Part shown: positions 13,094 to 26,177 of the stretch, piece after piece
Layout: each line of letters begins with the position of its first letter
Numbering within the stretch: position 1 is the stretch's first letter
Assembly: GCA_016793095.1 (NCBI GenBank)
Contig: JAEUJQ010000063.1
Span: forward strand, 1-53,486
Length of the DNA stretch: 53,486 nt
From: Myxococcaceae bacterium
GTDB lineage: Bacteria; Myxococcota; Myxococcia; Myxococcales; Myxococcaceae
Direction: 5' to 3'
Made by a program: the position numbers and the translations under genes
Notes under the pieces: generated by a model
What the model saw: the letters and a program-made list of their open reading frames with translations, nothing else
Databases searched by the model: none
Told to the model about the DNA's origin: nothing

Positions 13094-15562
13094 CTACAGG
13101 GCGAACTCGACGACGTAGAGGGTGAAGCTGGCGTCTTCTTCGGTCGTGGGTCGGGTGAGCGTCACGGTGGTGGAGTTCGTCAGCTCCGTCGTGGCCGTGG
13201 CCGGCCCGAGCTCGTCGTTGTTGAGCGTGGAGTCGCCGACCTCGCCGAGCGCCAGACCCTGAACGGCCTGGGTGCCGAGGAAGGTGAGGGTCCGGTCGGG
13301 ATCGACGGTGGTGATGGCCGCTGTCCGGCTCACATCTCCCATGACGAAGGACACGGTGAGCTGCTGGACCCGCGCTGTCGCGTTGAAGTCGATGCGCTGG
13401 AACGAGAGGTCGCCGCTCGGGTGAACGTCACAGTCGCCGGCTGGCGCGGTCGCCGCACGCGTGAACGTCAGCCCGGAGGGTGAGGTCACGAGGCCGCGGG
13501 CGAACAGGTTGCAAGTGGGCGCGTTGGTGGGCAGGGACGACAACACTTCGAGCTGGGTGAGGACGACCGTGTTGGTCGAGGCGGGCGTTGGCAGGATGAC
13601 GTTGCGTGAACGCATGTTCGTGAACCCGAACCCCGGCACGGTGCCATGGGTCACGGTCACGCCCGCGAAGGTGGCGACCTGGTACTCCCACGCCTCGCAC
13701 CCGCCGGCCGCCTCGATCGAGACCCAGCCTGCGTCGGCTCCACCGACGAGCCGGGTGACCGCGAGATCATCGTTGTTCAAGTTGGCGCCACCTGCCGACA
13801 CCGAGGCCAGGACGAAGCTGCGCGACGAATCGACCGGGGTGGTGAGCGGAAGCTGAGAGCCAGGACACGGAGCCCCCGTCGCGCGCTGCACGAACAGATC
13901 ACTGGCGAGCTCGAGGATCTGCCAGGTGATCGTGGCCGCCGGTCCCCCTCTGAACCTCGAGCAGACGATGTCGGGGCTGGCGAGGCGACAGCGGGTCTCG
14001 AGTCTCGATGGATCATCGTTCATCGGGTCGTGTGCGCGCGCCTGGAAGACCAGGAGTGAACGCGAGGGCAGTGGAGCAGGGGGCGGGACGAAACAGTTCA
14101 CAGAAACAGCAGTGGACGGGAGCGTGCAGGTCCCTCTCCTGACGGCAGCGAGACCGTTCAAGGTCGCCATCGCCGTTCCGAACGAGGCAACAGCCGTGAG
14201 GCTGAGGGGGCCGGCCGCCCGGACCTGCACGTAGATGATGACCGAGGATGAGCCAGCGGGAATGGTGGCGGTCGGGCCCATGGGGGTCGAGCAGGAGGGA
14301 TTCGTGAAGACCGACAGGCCGGGCGACACTCCGACCAGGACTGGTTCTGGCGTGAGCAGGGCCGCTGGAGCGCCTCCTTGGGCGAGCGCTGAGAGGGTGA
14401 CGGGGACGCACGACTTCGCGGCGTACGGCCCTCCTGGCTGCGTGATGGCGAGCGAAACGGGTGCGGGACGGACGGTCAACATCTGGGTGGCCGCGACGAG
14501 GCCCGCTGAGTTCGCCGAGAGAATGGCATCCCCGACGCTGGATGATCGGAACCAGGTCGAGGCGCTGCTCGTGCCGACCGGTATCGTCGTCGTCGGCGAG
14601 ACCACCATGCACATGGCGTCCGAGTAGAACGTGCTGGAGATCGTACCCGTAGACCAGGTCACCGAACGGGGGACGGTCGTCGGGACGACTGCACCCAGCC
14701 CGTCCACGGTCTGCACTGTCGCGATGCCAGAGCACCGGCCGCTGTAGATCGTCTGCGGCGGCGTGGTGAAGGCAAGCCGGACCGGAGATCCTGCGCCGGC
14801 CCCGCCCGCGAAGCCGCCAGCGAATCCTCCGCCCGAAGAACTGCCGCCTGCCGTCGAGCCACCAGCGGTCGAGCCACCAGCCGTCGAGCCACCTGCCGTC
14901 GAGCCACCAGCGGTCGAGCCACCAGCGGTCGAGCCACCAGCAGTCGAGCCACCAGCAGTCGAGCCACCCGCCGTCGAGCCGCCTGCCGTCGAGCCACCCG
15001 CTGTCGAGCCGCCCGCTGTCGAGCCGCCCGCTGTCGAGCCACCCGCTGTCGAGCCACCCGCTGTCGAGCCACCCGCTGTCGAGCCACCCGCTGTCGAGCC
15101 ACCTGCGGTCGAGCCACCTGCGGTCGATCCACCAGCGCTCGAGCCGCCCGCTGAGCCGCCCGCTGTCGAGCCGCCTGCCGTCGAGCCGCCCGCCGTCGAG
15201 CCGCCCGCTGTCGAGCCGCCCGCTGTCGAGCCGCCCGCTGTCGAGCCGCCCGCCGCGCCGCCAGCCGTCGAGCCACCTGCGGTCGATCCACCTGCGCTCG
15301 AGCCACCCGCCGTCGATCCGCCCGCCGTCGAACCGCCCGCCGTCGAACCGCCCGCCGTCGAGCCGCCCGCCGTCGAACCGCCCGCGGAGCCACCGCCTGC
15401 CCCACTCGAGACACATTCGCCCGAAGCGCAGACGAAGCCGGGGCCGCACTCATCCGTCGTTGCGCACGCGAAGCGAGTCGTCGCGGGGTCGAACGCACCA
15501 CAAGTACATCCAGACACTGTCGCAACTGCGATCGCGAAGGTGAGGCGAAGCGTCCGATGCAC
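13094..15562 (-). CDS. Large repeat-spacer lipoprotein with Ig-like and beta-rich domains
   Basis: The protein has 822 residues and a GTG start. The signal peptide ends in VSGC (lipobox). Then comes a small Cys-rich module, CTCGAFDPATTRFACATTDE followed by CGPGFVCASGECV, and a spacer of about 36 GGSTA-type repeats (about residues 57-240). Next come two bacterial Ig-like or invasin-like beta domains (about 258-345 and 350-445), each with a Cys pair. The C-terminal 340 residues form a beta-rich region with two related halves (both have LNNDDLAVT/LNNDELGPA-type motifs). It is probably displayed on the outer membrane, the repeat serving as a flexible stalk. No enzymatic motif was seen. The neighbouring lipoprotein at 15.6-17.4 kb shares the Cys-rich module. 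Confidence 0.8.
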   Translation of the reverse strand: MHRTLRLTFAIAVATVSGCTCGAFDPATTRFACATTDECGPGFVCASGECVSSGAGGGSAGGSTAGGSTAGGSTAGGSTAGGSTAGGSSAGGSTAGGSTAGGAAGGSTAGGSTAGGSTAGGSTAGGSTAGGSTAGGSAGGSSAGGSTAGGSTAGGSTAGGSTAGGSTAGGSTAGGSTAGGSTAGGSTAGGSTAGGSTAGGSTAGGSTAGGSTAGGSTAGGSTAGGSTAGGSTAGGSTAGGSSSGGGFAGGFAGGAGAGSPVRLAFTTPPQTIYSGRCSGIATVQTVDGLGAVVPTTVPRSVTWSTGTISSTFYSDAMCMVVSPTTTIPVGTSSASTWFRSSSVGDAILSANSAGLVAATQMLTVRPAPVSLAITQPGGPYAAKSCVPVTLSALAQGGAPAALLTPEPVLVGVSPGLSVFTNPSCSTPMGPTATIPAGSSSVIIYVQVRAAGPLSLTAVASFGTAMATLNGLAAVRRGTCTLPSTAVSVNCFVPPPAPLPSRSLLVFQARAHDPMNDDPSRLETRCRLASPDIVCSRFRGGPAATITWQILELASDLFVQRATGAPCPGSQLPLTTPVDSSRSFVLASVSAGGANLNNDDLAVTRLVGGADAGWVSIEAAGGCEAWEYQVATFAGVTVTHGTVPGFGFTNMRSRNVILPTPASTNTVVLTQLEVLSSLPTNAPTCNLFARGLVTSPSGLTFTRAATAPAGDCDVHPSGDLSFQRIDFNATARVQQLTVSFVMGDVSRTAAITTVDPDRTLTFLGTQAVQGLALGEVGDSTLNNDELGPATATTELTNSTTVTLTRPTTEEDASFTLYVVEFAL
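14845..15392. repeat. 15-bp coding minisatellite (GGSTA spacer array)
   Basis: A tandem array of roughly 36 imperfect 15-bp units, consensus GAGCCRCCYGCYGTC on the plus strand, encoding (GGSTA)n on the minus strand. Variation is mostly at third codon positions, with a few units shortened or changed (GGSSA, GGAA, GGSA). Copy number probably varies between strains. Confidence 0.9.
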
Positions 15563-21491: not shown

Positions 21492-24400
21492 TCACGGCAC
21501 GTTCGCGCTGCCCGGCGTCGGCGTGGTGGACAGCGCCCAGTCCGTCGCTGCGTTGTCGGTGTCGGTGCCGTTGGGCAGCCGGCAGAGCGAGCCGTTCACC
21601 GTGTTGCTGTCGGCCAGCGATGACGGCATGCCCTCGACGAGCGTCGTCGGGCCGGGAATGCCCATGATCGAGGCGTTGGTGAGGCTGCCCTCGTAGGACA
21701 GACGATCGATGATGGTGTTCGTCGCGCTGTCGAGCAGCACCACCCCGTCGGGCGCTCCGTTCTGCACGTTGTCGCCAGCCATCCACCCCATCGGCGTGAG
21801 CCGCGCGCCGCCGAGCAGCGAGAGGTTCGCGTTCGTGATCACGAGGTACCCGTTGGCGGGGAGGCTGCCTGCGGACGCGAGGGGAACCCGCAGGTACTCG
21901 GCGCCGTTGGCGCCGTTGACGAGCACCAGCACGAGGGTGCTGAGCGAGATGGGGCCCGGCGTGCTGTTGTAGAGCTCGATGAACTCGTTCGGGTCGCCCG
22001 TGCCCGGGTTGTCGTAGTCGACCTCGTTGATCACCAGCCCGCCGCCCGTCTGCGTCGTCACTGTCGCGGAGCCCGTCGTGCCCAGCGTCGCGCTGACGGT
22101 GGCGGACGGGGCGCTGCCATTGTTGAGGTAGGTGAACGTTGCCGAGCGCTGGCCGGCGAGCACCGAGACGGTGGCGGGCAGCGTGCCGGCTGTGGGCGGC
22201 ATCAGGCTGAGGCCGATCATCGCCCCCGCCGGCCCGGCGGGAATGTCGAGGGTCACCGTGAAGACGACGCTGCCTCCGGGAGACACGGCGGGCATCGGCG
22301 GCGTGAGCGAGGCGACCGTGCGCGGCTCGGTCGGCGTGATCGCCCTGACCGTCGCGGTGGGCATGCCCATGCCAGGGGCCGCGGTCAGCGTCGAGGTGCC
22401 GGCGTCGCTCGAGCTGACCAGCACCACCGCCGACGTCTGGCCCTGCGCCACCGTGACGCCGCCGTTCTCGACGGAGATCGCGGCGGCGTTGGACGAGCTG
22501 ATCGGCACGAAGGTGTTCATCAGCGCCGGTCCGGTGAGGGTGATCGTGAGCGGCAGCGGGAAGGTGGGGGCGGCCGTGAGCTGTCCGGCGTTCGTGAAGG
22601 CGTCTGGCCCGAACGAGAAGATCGTGGGCGCGCCGGTCGCGAGATCCGCCATTCCGCGAGGGTTCAAGGTCGAGGCGTTCGACCGCCAGGCGAGCACGCC
22701 CGTGATCGCCGTGAAGGTCTGGGTGACCATCGGCATGGGCGAGAGCCCAGCCACCAGGGTGCCGACGGTGATCGAGTCCATGCCGGCGGTGGCGGTGAAG
22801 CTCGTGATGCCGTTGACCGCCGTGACGGTGTTCGGGCCGATGGTGACGAGCACGCCCTCGAGGGCGGCCGCGCGCGTGCCCCCCGTGGTGATCTCGCCGA
22901 TGGTAGCGAGCGTGGAGGCGGGCGGCGCCTCGACCGTGCTGCTCGTGATCTGCGCCGAGCCGAGGTTCGCGAGCACGATGGCGCCGAAGAGATCGGTCAC
23001 CTGGCCATCGACGGCGACCCGGTTGCCGACCGCGACGCTCGAGAGGATGGCGGCCCCCGCACCCGTCTGGATGAAGAGGCCCGAGCGATCGGCGCCGGCG
23101 TACTGCGCGTCTCCGGGCTTCACCTGCACGAAGAAGCCGGTCGACGTCTTCGCCGTGACGAGCAGGTTGTCGAGCGCGACGGTGGACGACAGAGGAAACG
23201 TGCCGTCCTTGACGGCGTAGACGGTGCCCGGGCACGAGGACAGCCCGGGGTTGGCGTTCATCGGGCAGGGGTCGCACGCGTCGCCCTTGCCGTCGAGGTC
23301 GCCGTCGGCCTGGGTGGGGTTGGCGACGAGGGGGCAGTTGTCGAGCGCGTTGGCGACGCCGTCGCCGTCGCGATCGCTCGGCGTGGGCGCGGTACAGTTC
23401 GTCGTGTTCGGCGCGAGCGGGCAGACGTCGCAGGCGTCGGGCACCGAGTCCATGTCGGCGTCGGGGTGCACGCCGTTGTCGACGGGACGCAGCGGGTTGA
23501 AGACGGTGGGGCAGGCATCCATCGCGTCTGGCAGGTTGTCGCCGTCGGCGTCCGTCGGGGAGATCGCGCCGGTGTAGATCGTCGAGCCGTTGACGGCCTG
23601 CGCGCGGCTCGGCGTACAGGTGGGCTCGAGCGTGGGCGCGCCGCACTCGAAGGCGGGCAGGGCGGCCATGCCGGCGGCGGTCTGGGCCTGGCTGTACGTG
23701 ACGCTCGTCTCTGCCACGAGGCAGATGGCGCGCGCACGACCGCAGACGTCGAGCGGCTCGCACCCCGACAGCCGCAGGCTCGAGATGAGCGACGCGTCGC
23801 CGTACAGCGCGATGCTGCCGCGCATCACCAGGGCCACGTCCTGGGGTTGGGCAGCGATCACAGCGCGGTACCCCGTGCGGGCCCGGCCGTCGAAGATGGT
23901 GAGATCGGCGACCCGGCCGGGTGCGAGCACGCCGAGCGAGGCGCCGACGCCGGCGACCTCGGCCGCGTTCGACGTGACGGCGCGGAAGAGCTGCTCGTCG
24001 GTGAGGGCGTTGCCGAAGTAGACGCTGTTCAGCCGGTCGGCGCAGGCGAGCTCGCGCAGCAGGTTGGTCGAGCCCGAGACGACCCAGTCGGTGCCGAGCG
24101 CCACGCGGACGCCGAGGCGCTGCGCGAGCGGAATGGGCGTGGTGTTGCCGTACAGCGCGACATTCGAGCGCGGCGACCAGATGAGCGAGGTGTCGCTTAC
24201 CGCCATCTGCGAGAGTTGCCCCGCGCTCAGCGCCGTCGCGAAGGCGAAGGCCGTCTTCTGGCCCAGCAGGTCGTTCGAGACGCCGGGCGGCGTCGTGTCG
24301 AACGTGGCCGACGACATGCAGCGGTACTCGTTGAGGGCGAAGCGATCGACGCCCTCGGCGGCGTGCGCGAGGTAGGCCGAGTTGGCCGCGAAGGACGCCG

Positions 24401-25385
24401 CCGTGTCGGCCGTTCCGCCGTAGTTGCAGTCACCAGTGCGCTGCACGCCCGCCGCGTCCCCGAGGGGGAAGGGCGACGTCAGGGCGACCTGGCCAGAGGC
24501 ACCCTCGCGCAGCGTGCTGACGTCGAGGTTGCGCGTGAGGCCGGCCACGCCCGGGCCACCCAGGGTGCTGGTCGTGCCCGCCAGCACCGCCCGCAGCTCG
24601 CTCCAGCGCACGGCCTCGGTAGCCCCCGCCGTCGCCATGAGTGGCGTGTGCATGTTGGCGCCGGTGCGCCAGTCGTGGCGGTGCTCGTAGCGTTCACCCG
24701 TCTCGGCTCGCGGCGCGTTGGCGCCGAAGTTGTGGTGCACGTGTGCGTCGATGAGCCCCGGCGAGATCACGCCAGCGGGGCACGCGATCACGAGCTGGCC
24801 GCCGTCGGCGCAGGTGGTGCCGACGCACGAGATGAGGCCTCCTGGCTCGAGCGCGACCTGACCATTGAGGAGCGGTCCGGTCGGCGTGAGGACGGTGCCG
24901 GTGATGAGCCGGCGCGCGCCCGAGCCCGAGATCGTGCAGAGCGGAGCGGTGCCGGCGTCCGGCGCTCCCGCGTCCGTCGCGGAGCCGCCCGCCGTCGACC
25001 CGCCCCCCGCGCCACCGGCCGACGAGCCACCCGCCGTCGAGCCACCGGCCGTCGAGCCACCCGCCGTCGAGCCACCCGCCGTCGAGCCACCCGCCGTCGA
25101 GCCGCCCGCCGTGGAGCCGCCCGCAGCGGAGCCGCCCGCCGCGGAGCCGCCCGCCGTGGAGCCGCCTGCGGTGGAGCCGCCCGCCGTGGAGCCACCCGCC
25201 GTGGAGCCACCCGCCGTGGAGCCGCCTGCCATCGACCCACCAGCGCCGCCTCCCGACGAGCCTCCGCCCGCAGGCACTCCACCGGCGCTGCCTCCACTGG
25301 CACCTCCGTCGGGTGACGGCGTCGGGCCGGGGCACGCGAAGAACACCAACACGAGTGAAGCGGTCCACCAGGGAGCGAGGCGCAT
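21492..25385 (-). CDS. Giant lipoprotein: amidohydrolase + TSP3 repeats + lamin-tail domain
   Basis: The protein has 1297 residues from the ATG at 25385. The signal (MRLAPWWTASLVLVFFACPG) is a lipoprotein type. A GGSTA spacer covers about 45-130. Residues 165-500 are an amidohydrolase-superfamily domain: GLIDAHVHHNF carries the metal-binding HxH, ALGTDWVVSGS the conserved Asp, and LGVLAPGRVADLTIFDG the usual C-terminal strand. Thrombospondin type 3 calcium repeats follow (about 605-710; DxDxDxxPDxxDxCP). Next come OB-like and Ig-like beta domains (715-1110) and a lamin-tail domain (about 1115-1230; LVINEVDYDNPGTGDPNEFI). The enzyme is thus placed outside the cell, probably at the outer membrane. 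An upstream GTG adding 12 residues is possible. The substrate cannot be told. Confidence 0.85.
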   Translation of the reverse strand: MRLAPWWTASLVLVFFACPGPTPSPDGGASGGSAGGVPAGGGSSGGGAGGSMAGGSTAGGSTAGGSTAGGSTAGGSTAGGSAAGGSAAGGSTAGGSTAGGSTAGGSTAGGSTAGGSTAGGSSAGGAGGGSTAGGSATDAGAPDAGTAPLCTISGSGARRLITGTVLTPTGPLLNGQVALEPGGLISCVGTTCADGGQLVIACPAGVISPGLIDAHVHHNFGANAPRAETGERYEHRHDWRTGANMHTPLMATAGATEAVRWSELRAVLAGTTSTLGGPGVAGLTRNLDVSTLREGASGQVALTSPFPLGDAAGVQRTGDCNYGGTADTAASFAANSAYLAHAAEGVDRFALNEYRCMSSATFDTTPPGVSNDLLGQKTAFAFATALSAGQLSQMAVSDTSLIWSPRSNVALYGNTTPIPLAQRLGVRVALGTDWVVSGSTNLLRELACADRLNSVYFGNALTDEQLFRAVTSNAAEVAGVGASLGVLAPGRVADLTIFDGRARTGYRAVIAAQPQDVALVMRGSIALYGDASLISSLRLSGCEPLDVCGRARAICLVAETSVTYSQAQTAAGMAALPAFECGAPTLEPTCTPSRAQAVNGSTIYTGAISPTDADGDNLPDAMDACPTVFNPLRPVDNGVHPDADMDSVPDACDVCPLAPNTTNCTAPTPSDRDGDGVANALDNCPLVANPTQADGDLDGKGDACDPCPMNANPGLSSCPGTVYAVKDGTFPLSSTVALDNLLVTAKTSTGFFVQVKPGDAQYAGADRSGLFIQTGAGAAILSSVAVGNRVAVDGQVTDLFGAIVLANLGSAQITSSTVEAPPASTLATIGEITTGGTRAAALEGVLVTIGPNTVTAVNGITSFTATAGMDSITVGTLVAGLSPMPMVTQTFTAITGVLAWRSNASTLNPRGMADLATGAPTIFSFGPDAFTNAGQLTAAPTFPLPLTITLTGPALMNTFVPISSSNAAAISVENGGVTVAQGQTSAVVLVSSSDAGTSTLTAAPGMGMPTATVRAITPTEPRTVASLTPPMPAVSPGGSVVFTVTLDIPAGPAGAMIGLSLMPPTAGTLPATVSVLAGQRSATFTYLNNGSAPSATVSATLGTTGSATVTTQTGGGLVINEVDYDNPGTGDPNEFIELYNSTPGPISLSTLVLVLVNGANGAEYLRVPLASAGSLPANGYLVITNANLSLLGGARLTPMGWMAGDNVQNGAPDGVVLLDSATNTIIDRLSYEGSLTNASIMGIPGPTTLVEGMPSSLADSNTVNGSLCRLPNGTDTDNAATDWALSTTPTPGSANVP
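25000..25250. repeat. 15-bp coding minisatellite (second GGSTA array)
   Basis: About 15 tandem units with the same 15-bp consensus as the 14.8-15.4 kb array, encoding GGSTA (some GGSAA) on the minus strand. The two arrays are about 10 kb apart in the same orientation, so recombination between them would delete the DNA in between. Confidence 0.85.
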
Positions 25386-25448
25386 GAGGCCCTGTAGAGC
25401 GAAGTCACGTGGGGGCGCCATCGAGATCTGGACGACTCGCGACAGCGC

Positions 25449-26177
25449 TCAAGGCGCGAAGAGCGACAGCGAGCGCGAGAAGGCGCCCTGCCTCAGCTCG
25501 CCGAAGTCGAACAGCGCGTGGAGCAGCAGGCAGCGGTCTGAGGTGTCGGCCTCGGCGCAGCCGTCGTGCAGGCTGGACACCTCGGTGAGCGGCACGTTGG
25601 TGGTCGGGTCGGGCCGGTAGGCCTCGGACACGTAGCCGCCGTCGATGGACGGATGCGGGGACTCGTTGCGGTGGCAGACACCGCAGGTGGTGACGCCGGT
25701 GGGCCGCTGCACGTGCTCGAGGGGCGCAAGGTGGGGGAGGCGGGCCGCGACGGGGACCTCGAGCTCGCCCTTCAGCGTGCGCTTCGCCTCTGTCCACTCG
25801 GCGAACTCGATCAGCCTGGCGCCCGCCCCTTCGTGCGCGACCGAGACGACGAGGCCGGAGTTCAACAGGAAGACGCGAGGGCTTCGTCGGCCGGCGCCGG
25901 GCTGCGCGCTGATGGGGCTCAACGTCGCGACCGCGTCGAGGGGGCGGGGCAGGCTCGCGACGAAGCAGGGCGCCGACACGGGGAGGGGAAGGGCGTTGAG
26001 CCGATCGACCGCGCCGAAGATGGTGGTGACGGCGCCGCTCGACTGCAGGCTGCTGCACGCGCGAAGCGACTCGGCGGGGCCATGCAGGGGCCGAGGCACT
26101 CCCGCGTCGACAGGAGGCGACGACGGGCCGCCGCACGCAGCGAACACGAGGAGCAGGGCCCTGGGGAACCGAAGCAC
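25449..26177 (-). CDS. Lipoprotein with a single CxxCH heme-like motif
   Basis: The protein has 242 residues. The start is GTG and the signal ends in VFAAC (MLRFPRALLLVFAACGGPSS), a lipoprotein signal. The mature protein has a single CGVCH near residues 163-167, the covalent heme attachment motif of c-type cytochromes, with several Met and His residues nearby that could be the sixth ligand. Other cysteines (near 40, 70, 199 and 207) could form disulfides. Multi-heme proteins have more motifs, so this is either a mono-heme protein or a non-heme coincidence. It shares the strand with the giant amidohydrolase lipoprotein, 63 bp upstream of it. The function is unknown. Confidence 0.65.
   Translation of the reverse strand: MLRFPRALLLVFAACGGPSSPPVDAGVPRPLHGPAESLRACSSLQSSGAVTTIFGAVDRLNALPLPVSAPCFVASLPRPLDAVATLSPISAQPGAGRRSPRVFLLNSGLVVSVAHEGAGARLIEFAEWTEAKRTLKGELEVPVAARLPHLAPLEHVQRPTGVTTCGVCHRNESPHPSIDGGYVSEAYRPDPTTNVPLTEVSSLHDGCAEADTSDRCLLLHALFDFGELRQGAFSRSLSLFAP

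Follow-up and report, generated by a model that had tools for sequence, protein, structure and literature searches.

A probable surface lipoprotein of Myxococcaceae joining an amidohydrolase barrel without the beta-6 histidine to a TSP3-OB-Ig-Ig-lamin-tail region

The gene and its product

The window, by which we mean the whole stretch of 53,486 nucleotides analysed here (contig JAEUJQ010000063.1 of a Myxococcaceae bacterium), carries on its minus strand, at 21492-25385, an intact open reading frame (ORF) of 1297 residues, whose product joins a lipoprotein signal, a flexible linker, an amidohydrolase-type barrel and a long modular tail (Table 1). In this barrel the metal ligands are retained while the catalytic His of strand beta-6 is replaced by Phe. 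An alternative in-frame ATG lies 36 bases upstream, at 25421, and would give 1309 residues, but the inner ATG leads directly into the signal peptide. The codons of the key residues were verified against the window sequence, and the signal peptide, scored with the general lipobox pattern of bacterial lipoproteins, matches that pattern at its Cys.

Table 1. Features of the gene (window coordinates)
Feature	Coordinates	Strand	Basis
Whole gene, 1297 residues and stop	21492..25385	minus	homologues G006 and G003 cover barrel to C-terminus
Signal peptide and lipobox, ending at Cys18 (VFFA-C)	25332..25385	minus	sequence; lipobox pattern match
Flexible Gly/Ser/Thr/Ala linker, TAGGS repeats	24951..25331	minus	sequence, tandem repeat
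Amidohydrolase (beta/alpha)8-type domain, residues 146-595	23601..24950	minus	Pfam; AF2 pLDDT 93.9; VIA Z 31.4 to 4f0s, 4gbd
Metal ligands H215-V-H217 (canonical copies H-D/E-H)	24735..24743	minus	family alignment and codons
Beta-5 H341-A-A-E344, presumed metal-ligand His and proton-shuttle Glu	24354..24365	minus	both kept in 97/97 canonical copies
F382 (TTC) where the beta-6 catalytic His is expected	24240..24242	minus	His in 94 and Gln in 3 of 97 canonical copies; clade F/M/M
Beta-8 D433, metal ligand/catalytic Asp	24087..24089	minus	97/97 canonical copies
Thrombospondin type 3 repeats (TSP3), residues 612-716	23238..23552	minus	Pfam TSP_3; COMP/thrombospondin matches
OB fold, residues 719-818	22932..23231	minus	VIA structure matches; ExeM/NucH partial match 744-859
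First Ig-like domain, residues 919-1018	22332..22631	minus	structure model
Second Ig-like domain, residues 1019-1113	22047..22331	minus	structure model
Lamin-tail domain, residues 1115-1233	21687..22043	minus	Pfam LTD; lamin A/C 1ifr Z 10.2

Three of the domains pass the Pfam gathering cut-offs, with scores of 51.5 against 25 for Amidohydro_1, 51.4 against 34.3 for LTD (the lamin-tail domain) and 49.6 against 25 for TSP_3. Two pieces of the protein were modelled using family alignments, residues 146-640, with a mean predicted local distance difference test score (pLDDT) of 93.9 and a predicted template modelling score (pTM) of 0.94, and residues 590-1297, with values of 88.3 and 0.54; because the pTM of the latter is low despite its pLDDT, the tail domains are taken as good but their mutual arrangement is not. 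The barrel has the (beta/alpha)8 fold of the amidohydrolase superfamily. Its best VIA matches are the adenosine/methylthioadenosine (MTA)-type deaminases 4f0s and 4gbd (356-358 residues), and a Foldseek search, with AtzA at the top, recovered the same enzyme group. Numbered within the tail model, the stretch 130-229 matches OB folds (p204 HIN with dsDNA, Z 10.9; Teb1, Z 10.4; RPA, Z 9.7), the stretches 330-429 and 430-524 match Ig-like domains, those of bacterial Ig among them, and the stretch 526-644 matches the tail of lamin A/C; in the numbering of the whole protein, residues of about 819-918 remain without an assigned fold. A preliminary description, made from the sequence alone, had proposed a fusion of lipoprotein signal, spacer, hydrolase, TSP3, Ig-like and lamin-tail domains, and had suggested structure prediction and comparison with known amidohydrolases as a check; the fusion is borne out by Pfam and by the models, to which the structure search of the tail adds the OB fold at about residues 719-818.

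The same order of domains is found well beyond the window. From the barrel to the C-terminus, the homologue in genome G003, which also has the linker and the lipobox, is 68.5% identical over 1152 residues, and that in G006 is 68.7% identical over 1150 residues, its N-terminus being cut by the contig end. Since G003 has the whole order, G006 has it from barrel to C-terminus and the order recurs across the phylum in many relatives, an assembly error, which the preliminary description had raised as an objection, or a chance fusion is rejected. A contig scan found 116 relatives, of which 80 were kept, the record names being those of myxobacteria, Myxococcota or Deltaproteobacteria, with one "uncultured bacterium". 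At E <= 1e-40 a copy is present in 81 of the 96 genomes of the window's taxonomic family, and at E <= 1e-60 the barrel is present in 113 of 179 genomes of the phylum with completeness of 80 or more.

Among 102 distinct rows, window included, 100 have at least 60 residues past the barrel, the other two being short outgroup rows, and 81 of these 100 tails were scanned; the other 19 comprise 18 that run into the end of a locus or contig and L028, the ORF of which stops after 198 residues of the tail. All 81 scanned tails, that of the window included, have TSP_3, and 63 have LTD (56 of 56 in one set and 7 of 25 in the other). Judging by ORF length, the 18 tails without LTD most likely belong to the 18 proteins no longer than 1014 residues. 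There is thus a shorter form that lacks the lamin tail, and L028 may be a further member of it; the window protein, with its barrel followed by TSP3, is of the long form. The lipobox pattern occurs in 78 of the 97 rows with sufficient upstream sequence (window and two outgroup rows included), a count that is rough because starts were guessed from translated ORFs.

A 15-base unit repeated 17.1 times in tandem makes up the DNA of the linker, and linkers of the TAGGS type recur across many contigs of the window's own genome: of 140 matches, obtained by scoring 150 of 315 candidates, a hand count places 121 in the linker part, most of them in other ORFs and some being several pieces of one ORF. 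The neighbouring ORF at 13094-15562 also carries such a linker (window 14744-15439), and it seems that the genus uses one linker type for many exported proteins. The tail was found in that genome only on the window gene and on the canonical copy of contig 47 (E <= 0.001), and the idea of a generic tail module is rejected.

The active site of the window copy

H215, H217, H341, E344 and D433 are invariant in the 97 canonical copies, and all five are present in the window copy. Thus the metal ligands of the amidohydrolase superfamily (HxH, beta-5 His and beta-8 Asp) are in place, as is the HxxE glutamate of the mononuclear aminohydrolase group; here we take H341 to be a metal ligand and E344 to be the proton shuttle. 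Loss of the metal ligands, which the preliminary description had named beforehand as speaking against an enzyme fused to these domains, is not what the sequence of the window copy indicates.

What has changed is position 382, where the window copy has Phe and its two nearest homologues, those of G006 and G003, have Met; the three together are called the window clade. The column is His in the two distant outgroup copies and in five solved relatives (two of which are near-identical in sequence), and the loss of His382 is therefore derived. The alignment around the position is gap-free. A sequencing error would have had to arise in each of three assemblies, whose codons read TTC or ATG, and is therefore improbable. 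When the comparison is widened to 159 distinct copies, 158 of which were aligned (one was dropped since two shared a locus name), the position is H in 146, Q in 7, M in 2, S in 2 and F in 1. The clade is marked by three active-site changes, D/E216 to V, I/L/M/V218 to H and H382 to F or M, and moreover T305 and A416, invariant across the 97 canonical copies, are altered in all three members. V216 and D213 resemble the general amidohydrolase pattern and, because the outgroup likewise has D213, they may be ancestral. By its fold and metal site the window copy would be filed in the amidohydrolase superfamily and, lacking the catalytic beta-6 His, outside the active mononuclear aminohydrolase group, which we take to be the one labelled subtype III.

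The clade remains under constraint. It retains 49 of the 53 columns that are invariant in the other 97 rows, the remaining four differing in at least one member and two of them in all three; 11 further groups, each of one to three rows, have 0-3 altered columns when tested in this way. The barrel cysteines conserved across the family are kept by all three members, and the frames are open in the three genomes over the part present (the N-terminus in G006 being cut), with about 75% identity in the barrel. For the barrel, NG86 gives dN/dS values of 0.25, 0.26 and 0.18 among the clade members, as compared with 0.18, 0.33 and 0.41 between the canonical copies of the same genomes (0.48 for L039/L040). 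With synonymous sites near saturation and GC high, these values are rough and are used only to say that constraint has not vanished.

The clade is present in three of the seven genomes of the genus, and each of the three also holds a canonical copy, that of the window's genome lying on contig 47. Its nearest rows in the tree are one Myxococcales and one Kofleriaceae metagenome-assembled genome (L039, L040), at 51-52% identity, and its stem branch is long (0.51). The tree does not support the genus's own canonical copy as the parent, with the warning that the long stem may mislead the placement and that the root is uncertain; a transfer into the genus and an old duplication with losses both fit. 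A distant third paralogue, of about 37% identity and with a short frame, is also seen in two of these genomes (L003/L124, G000:C29:181022-182464, in the window's own genome and L125 in G006); the former match contains an in-frame TGA, and the G006 copy is open over 533 residues.

Interpretation of the window copy

We propose that the window gene is a retained surface paralogue whose catalysis is impaired or altered and which serves mainly as a surface binding protein beside the canonical copy, a proposal that we think stands an even chance of being right. The product would be a probable outer-membrane or surface lipoprotein, its barrel belonging to a family, spread across the Myxococcota, of deaminase-like amidohydrolases that are exported, rich in cysteine and followed by a TSP3-OB-Ig-Ig-LTD tail and, within that family, to a small divergent clade in which the metal ligands and the HxxE Glu are retained and the beta-6 His is exchanged for Phe or Met. 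Such a paralogue would still fold and probably still bind metal and ligand, while hydrolysis would be lost or strongly reduced, and its main work would be to bind matrix, nucleic acid or a small ligand at the surface, next to the canonical copy of the same genome. The preliminary description had spoken of an outer-surface enzyme. The surface part of that claim, placement through the fusion, is supported, as an inference, by the lipobox, the conserved barrel cysteines and the phylum-wide domain order; the enzyme part is weakened and doubtful for the window copy because Phe replaces the beta-6 His. The binding of a large substrate or matrix, also put forward there, is suggested by the types of domain present.

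The rest of the family lends the proposal some support. A census at E <= 1e-40 gave 102 copies in 80 genomes (80 of the 81 matching genomes, the partial G030 being excluded). In each of the 18 multi-copy genomes one or more copies retain the complete canonical signature, and a copy lacking the beta-6 His occurs in 10 of these 18 as compared with 2 of the 62 single-copy genomes (Fisher p 1.4e-6, kinship ignored). A tree built from 101 of the census copies (the partial G081 being excluded) shows five changes of the beta-6 His, namely in the window clade, in G062, in G012/G032, in a four-member group with Q and D433E, and in a two-member group with S; multi-copy genomes account for four of these changes. 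Moreover, the single-copy genome G063 keeps His382 with all metal ligands lost. Tentatively, and with doubt prevailing, these data can be read to mean that myxobacteria have repeatedly converted copies of an exported, lipid-anchored amidohydrolase into surface binders by removing the beta-6 His (once, all metal ligands) with the fold, the cysteines and the OB-Ig-LTD tail kept. If this is true, such copies would be pseudoenzymes acting as surface receptors or matrix adhesins beside the active parent enzyme.

Three observations on individual copies are recorded here. The G063 copy (L211, G063:C1:5155204-5156700) is an open frame with its four metal ligands changed to N, R, N and H, and by its sequence it is a candidate full pseudoenzyme. 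In the second copies L198, L201, L202 and L204 two changes are linked, Q at the beta-6 site and E in place of the beta-8 Asp. The copy at G081:C1:2946566-2948064 is split across two frames, likely by a frameshift.

Several points weigh against the proposed binding role. The retention of the metal ligands and of E344 fits an active enzyme with a changed mechanism, unusual site residues are tolerated by some enzymes of the superfamily, and the His at 218, unique to the window clade, might compensate for the lost beta-6 His. The clade is somewhat looser than other groups in its conserved columns, but not decayed. The association with copy number rests on five changes in the tree, one of them in single-copy genomes, and with so few events it is weak once kinship is counted; fragmented assemblies may also conceal second copies. 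Finally, two genomes were found with the Gln copy only, so that loss of the beta-6 His need not equal loss of function.

A serious contender, though in our view probably not the right explanation, is that the product still works as an amidohydrolase outside the cell, with its mechanism or its substrate altered, the metal water being oriented by other groups and the change from HDH-I to HVH-H, together with the lost beta-6 His, having retuned the site. Besides the retained metal ligands and E344, this would account for the constraint on the barrel, seen in both dN/dS and the invariant columns, and for the linked changes at 216, 218, 305, 382 and 416 in all three members. However, 94 of the 97 canonical homologues and both outgroup rows have the beta-6 His, and H218 would lie outside the alternating metal-binding pair 215/217.

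Another explanation, which we think unlikely, is that of a nucleic-acid-associated surface deaminase, with the OB fold and the lamin tail holding extracellular DNA and the barrel deaminating the released bases or nucleosides. The OB fold is nearest to the DNA-binding HIN, Teb1 and RPA domains, and the barrel is nearest to adenosine/MTA, isocytosine and guanine deaminases among others. The nuclease Xds also combines OB and LTD (PMC6746945), and external lamin-tail domains are predicted binders of extracellular DNA or polysaccharide according to a recent survey (PMC12419801). But the ligands of OB folds are diverse, the closest barrels of solved structure are only about 20% identical, none of the four annotated neighbour families points to nucleotide use, and the window copy is without the beta-6 His. 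Finally, that the gene is a decaying, functionless duplicate heading for loss, as its patchy presence in three of seven genomes, its long stem and the loss of all metal ligands in the G063 copy might suggest, is very improbable given the open frames and mutual identity of the three copies, their low dN/dS and the invariant columns that they retain.

The surroundings of the gene gave no clue to a substrate, with four neighbour families annotated and flank lengths varying between loci. An alanine dehydrogenase gene lies downstream at both the window and the G006 loci, and no match to it was found in the 19.9 kb around the G003 copy. Kinases occur in 31 of 84 loci and are, in our judgement, generic neighbours for myxobacteria. 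Downstream of canonical copies in 19 of the 84 loci lies a convergent gene family (a TetR regulator in the one member scanned, L121:2334-2999), within 150 bases in 13 of the 19; it is absent at the window locus. The gene upstream of the window copy (25449-26177, minus strand) codes for a putative lipoprotein with a CxxCH motif and without a Pfam match.

Whichever of these explanations applies to the window copy, the family is present in most genomes of its taxonomic family, where it is probably exposed on the surface or on vesicles, and the fusion connects deaminase-like chemistry with OB and lamin-tail modules outside the cell. For the proposed binding role, the pairs of an intact and a His-less copy within one genome offer a clean way to test the re-use of surface amidohydrolases as binding proteins.

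Comparison with known systems

The nearest solved enzymes are the adenosine/MTA/S-adenosylhomocysteine deaminases and the TRZ/ATZ chlorohydrolases (4f0s, 4gbd, 4dzh, AtzA 4v1x and TrzN 3ls9), which have the fold in common with the window barrel over 356-361 residues (Z 27.6-31.4, root-mean-square deviation 2.6-2.9 A). The HxH motif and the beta-8 Asp align with those of the barrel (in five chains, TrzN not among them), and the correspondence of the beta-5 His and Glu comes from the family alignment. Unlike this group, to which it is about 20% identical, the window protein is apparently exported and cysteine-rich, has a 700-residue tail and is without the beta-6 His. These enzymes act on differing substrates, and the sequence did not yield the substrate; the protein falls below the curated cut-off of guanine deaminase TIGR02967 (57 bits against 375.4).

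The extracellular nucleases ExeM, NucH and Xds are likewise exported with an OB fold and a lamin-tail domain, and a partial NCBIfam match covers the OB part of the window protein. The match to ExeM/NucH NF033681 reaches 29.7 bits against 300, and the Pfam scan found no nuclease domain; the order is enzyme-TSP3-OB-Ig-Ig-LTD, as compared with LTD-OB-nuclease in Xds (PMC6746945). There, the OB domain of Vibrio cholerae Xds is required for nuclease activity and the lamin tail is dispensable for activity and localisation, and thus membrane tethering by the LTD should not be assumed in the window protein, for which the lipobox is the better anchor.

A planctomycete "anchoring" protein, part of a hypothetical model, is also described as exported with a lamin tail and TSP3, its suggested task being to keep enzymes on the outside of the cell (PMC6461901); it has no amidohydrolase and another domain order, and the likeness drawn here is by description. 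MtsC, a myxobacterial cohesion protein, has TSP3 repeats in common with the window protein and is without an amidohydrolase; the match to its family, NF047638, reaches 58.4 bits against 350.

Amidohydrolases outside the cell have also been reported in a related genus. The Myxococcus xanthus "metal dependent amidohydrolase" MXAN_0886 is reported as enriched more than 65-fold in vesicles over the outer membrane (PMC4158809), and the "amidohydrolase" MXAN0075 is found in the extracellular matrix (PMC3222651), both being likened to the window protein by description. Either of them could be the canonical orthologue. All listed genomes of the related genus g23 have a copy, which among its single-contig genomes lies at 1.05-1.06 Mb in G028 and G115 and at 7.57 Mb in G098. 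We assume that a locus number near 0886 would be expected at about 1.05-1.06 Mb, which fits G028 and G115 but not G098.

Literature searches, thin on subscription journals, found no paper describing an amidohydrolase-TSP3-OB-Ig-LTD fusion. The fusion is a variation on known kinds, namely the amidohydrolase fold on the one hand and exported hydrolases with OB and lamin-tail modules on the other.

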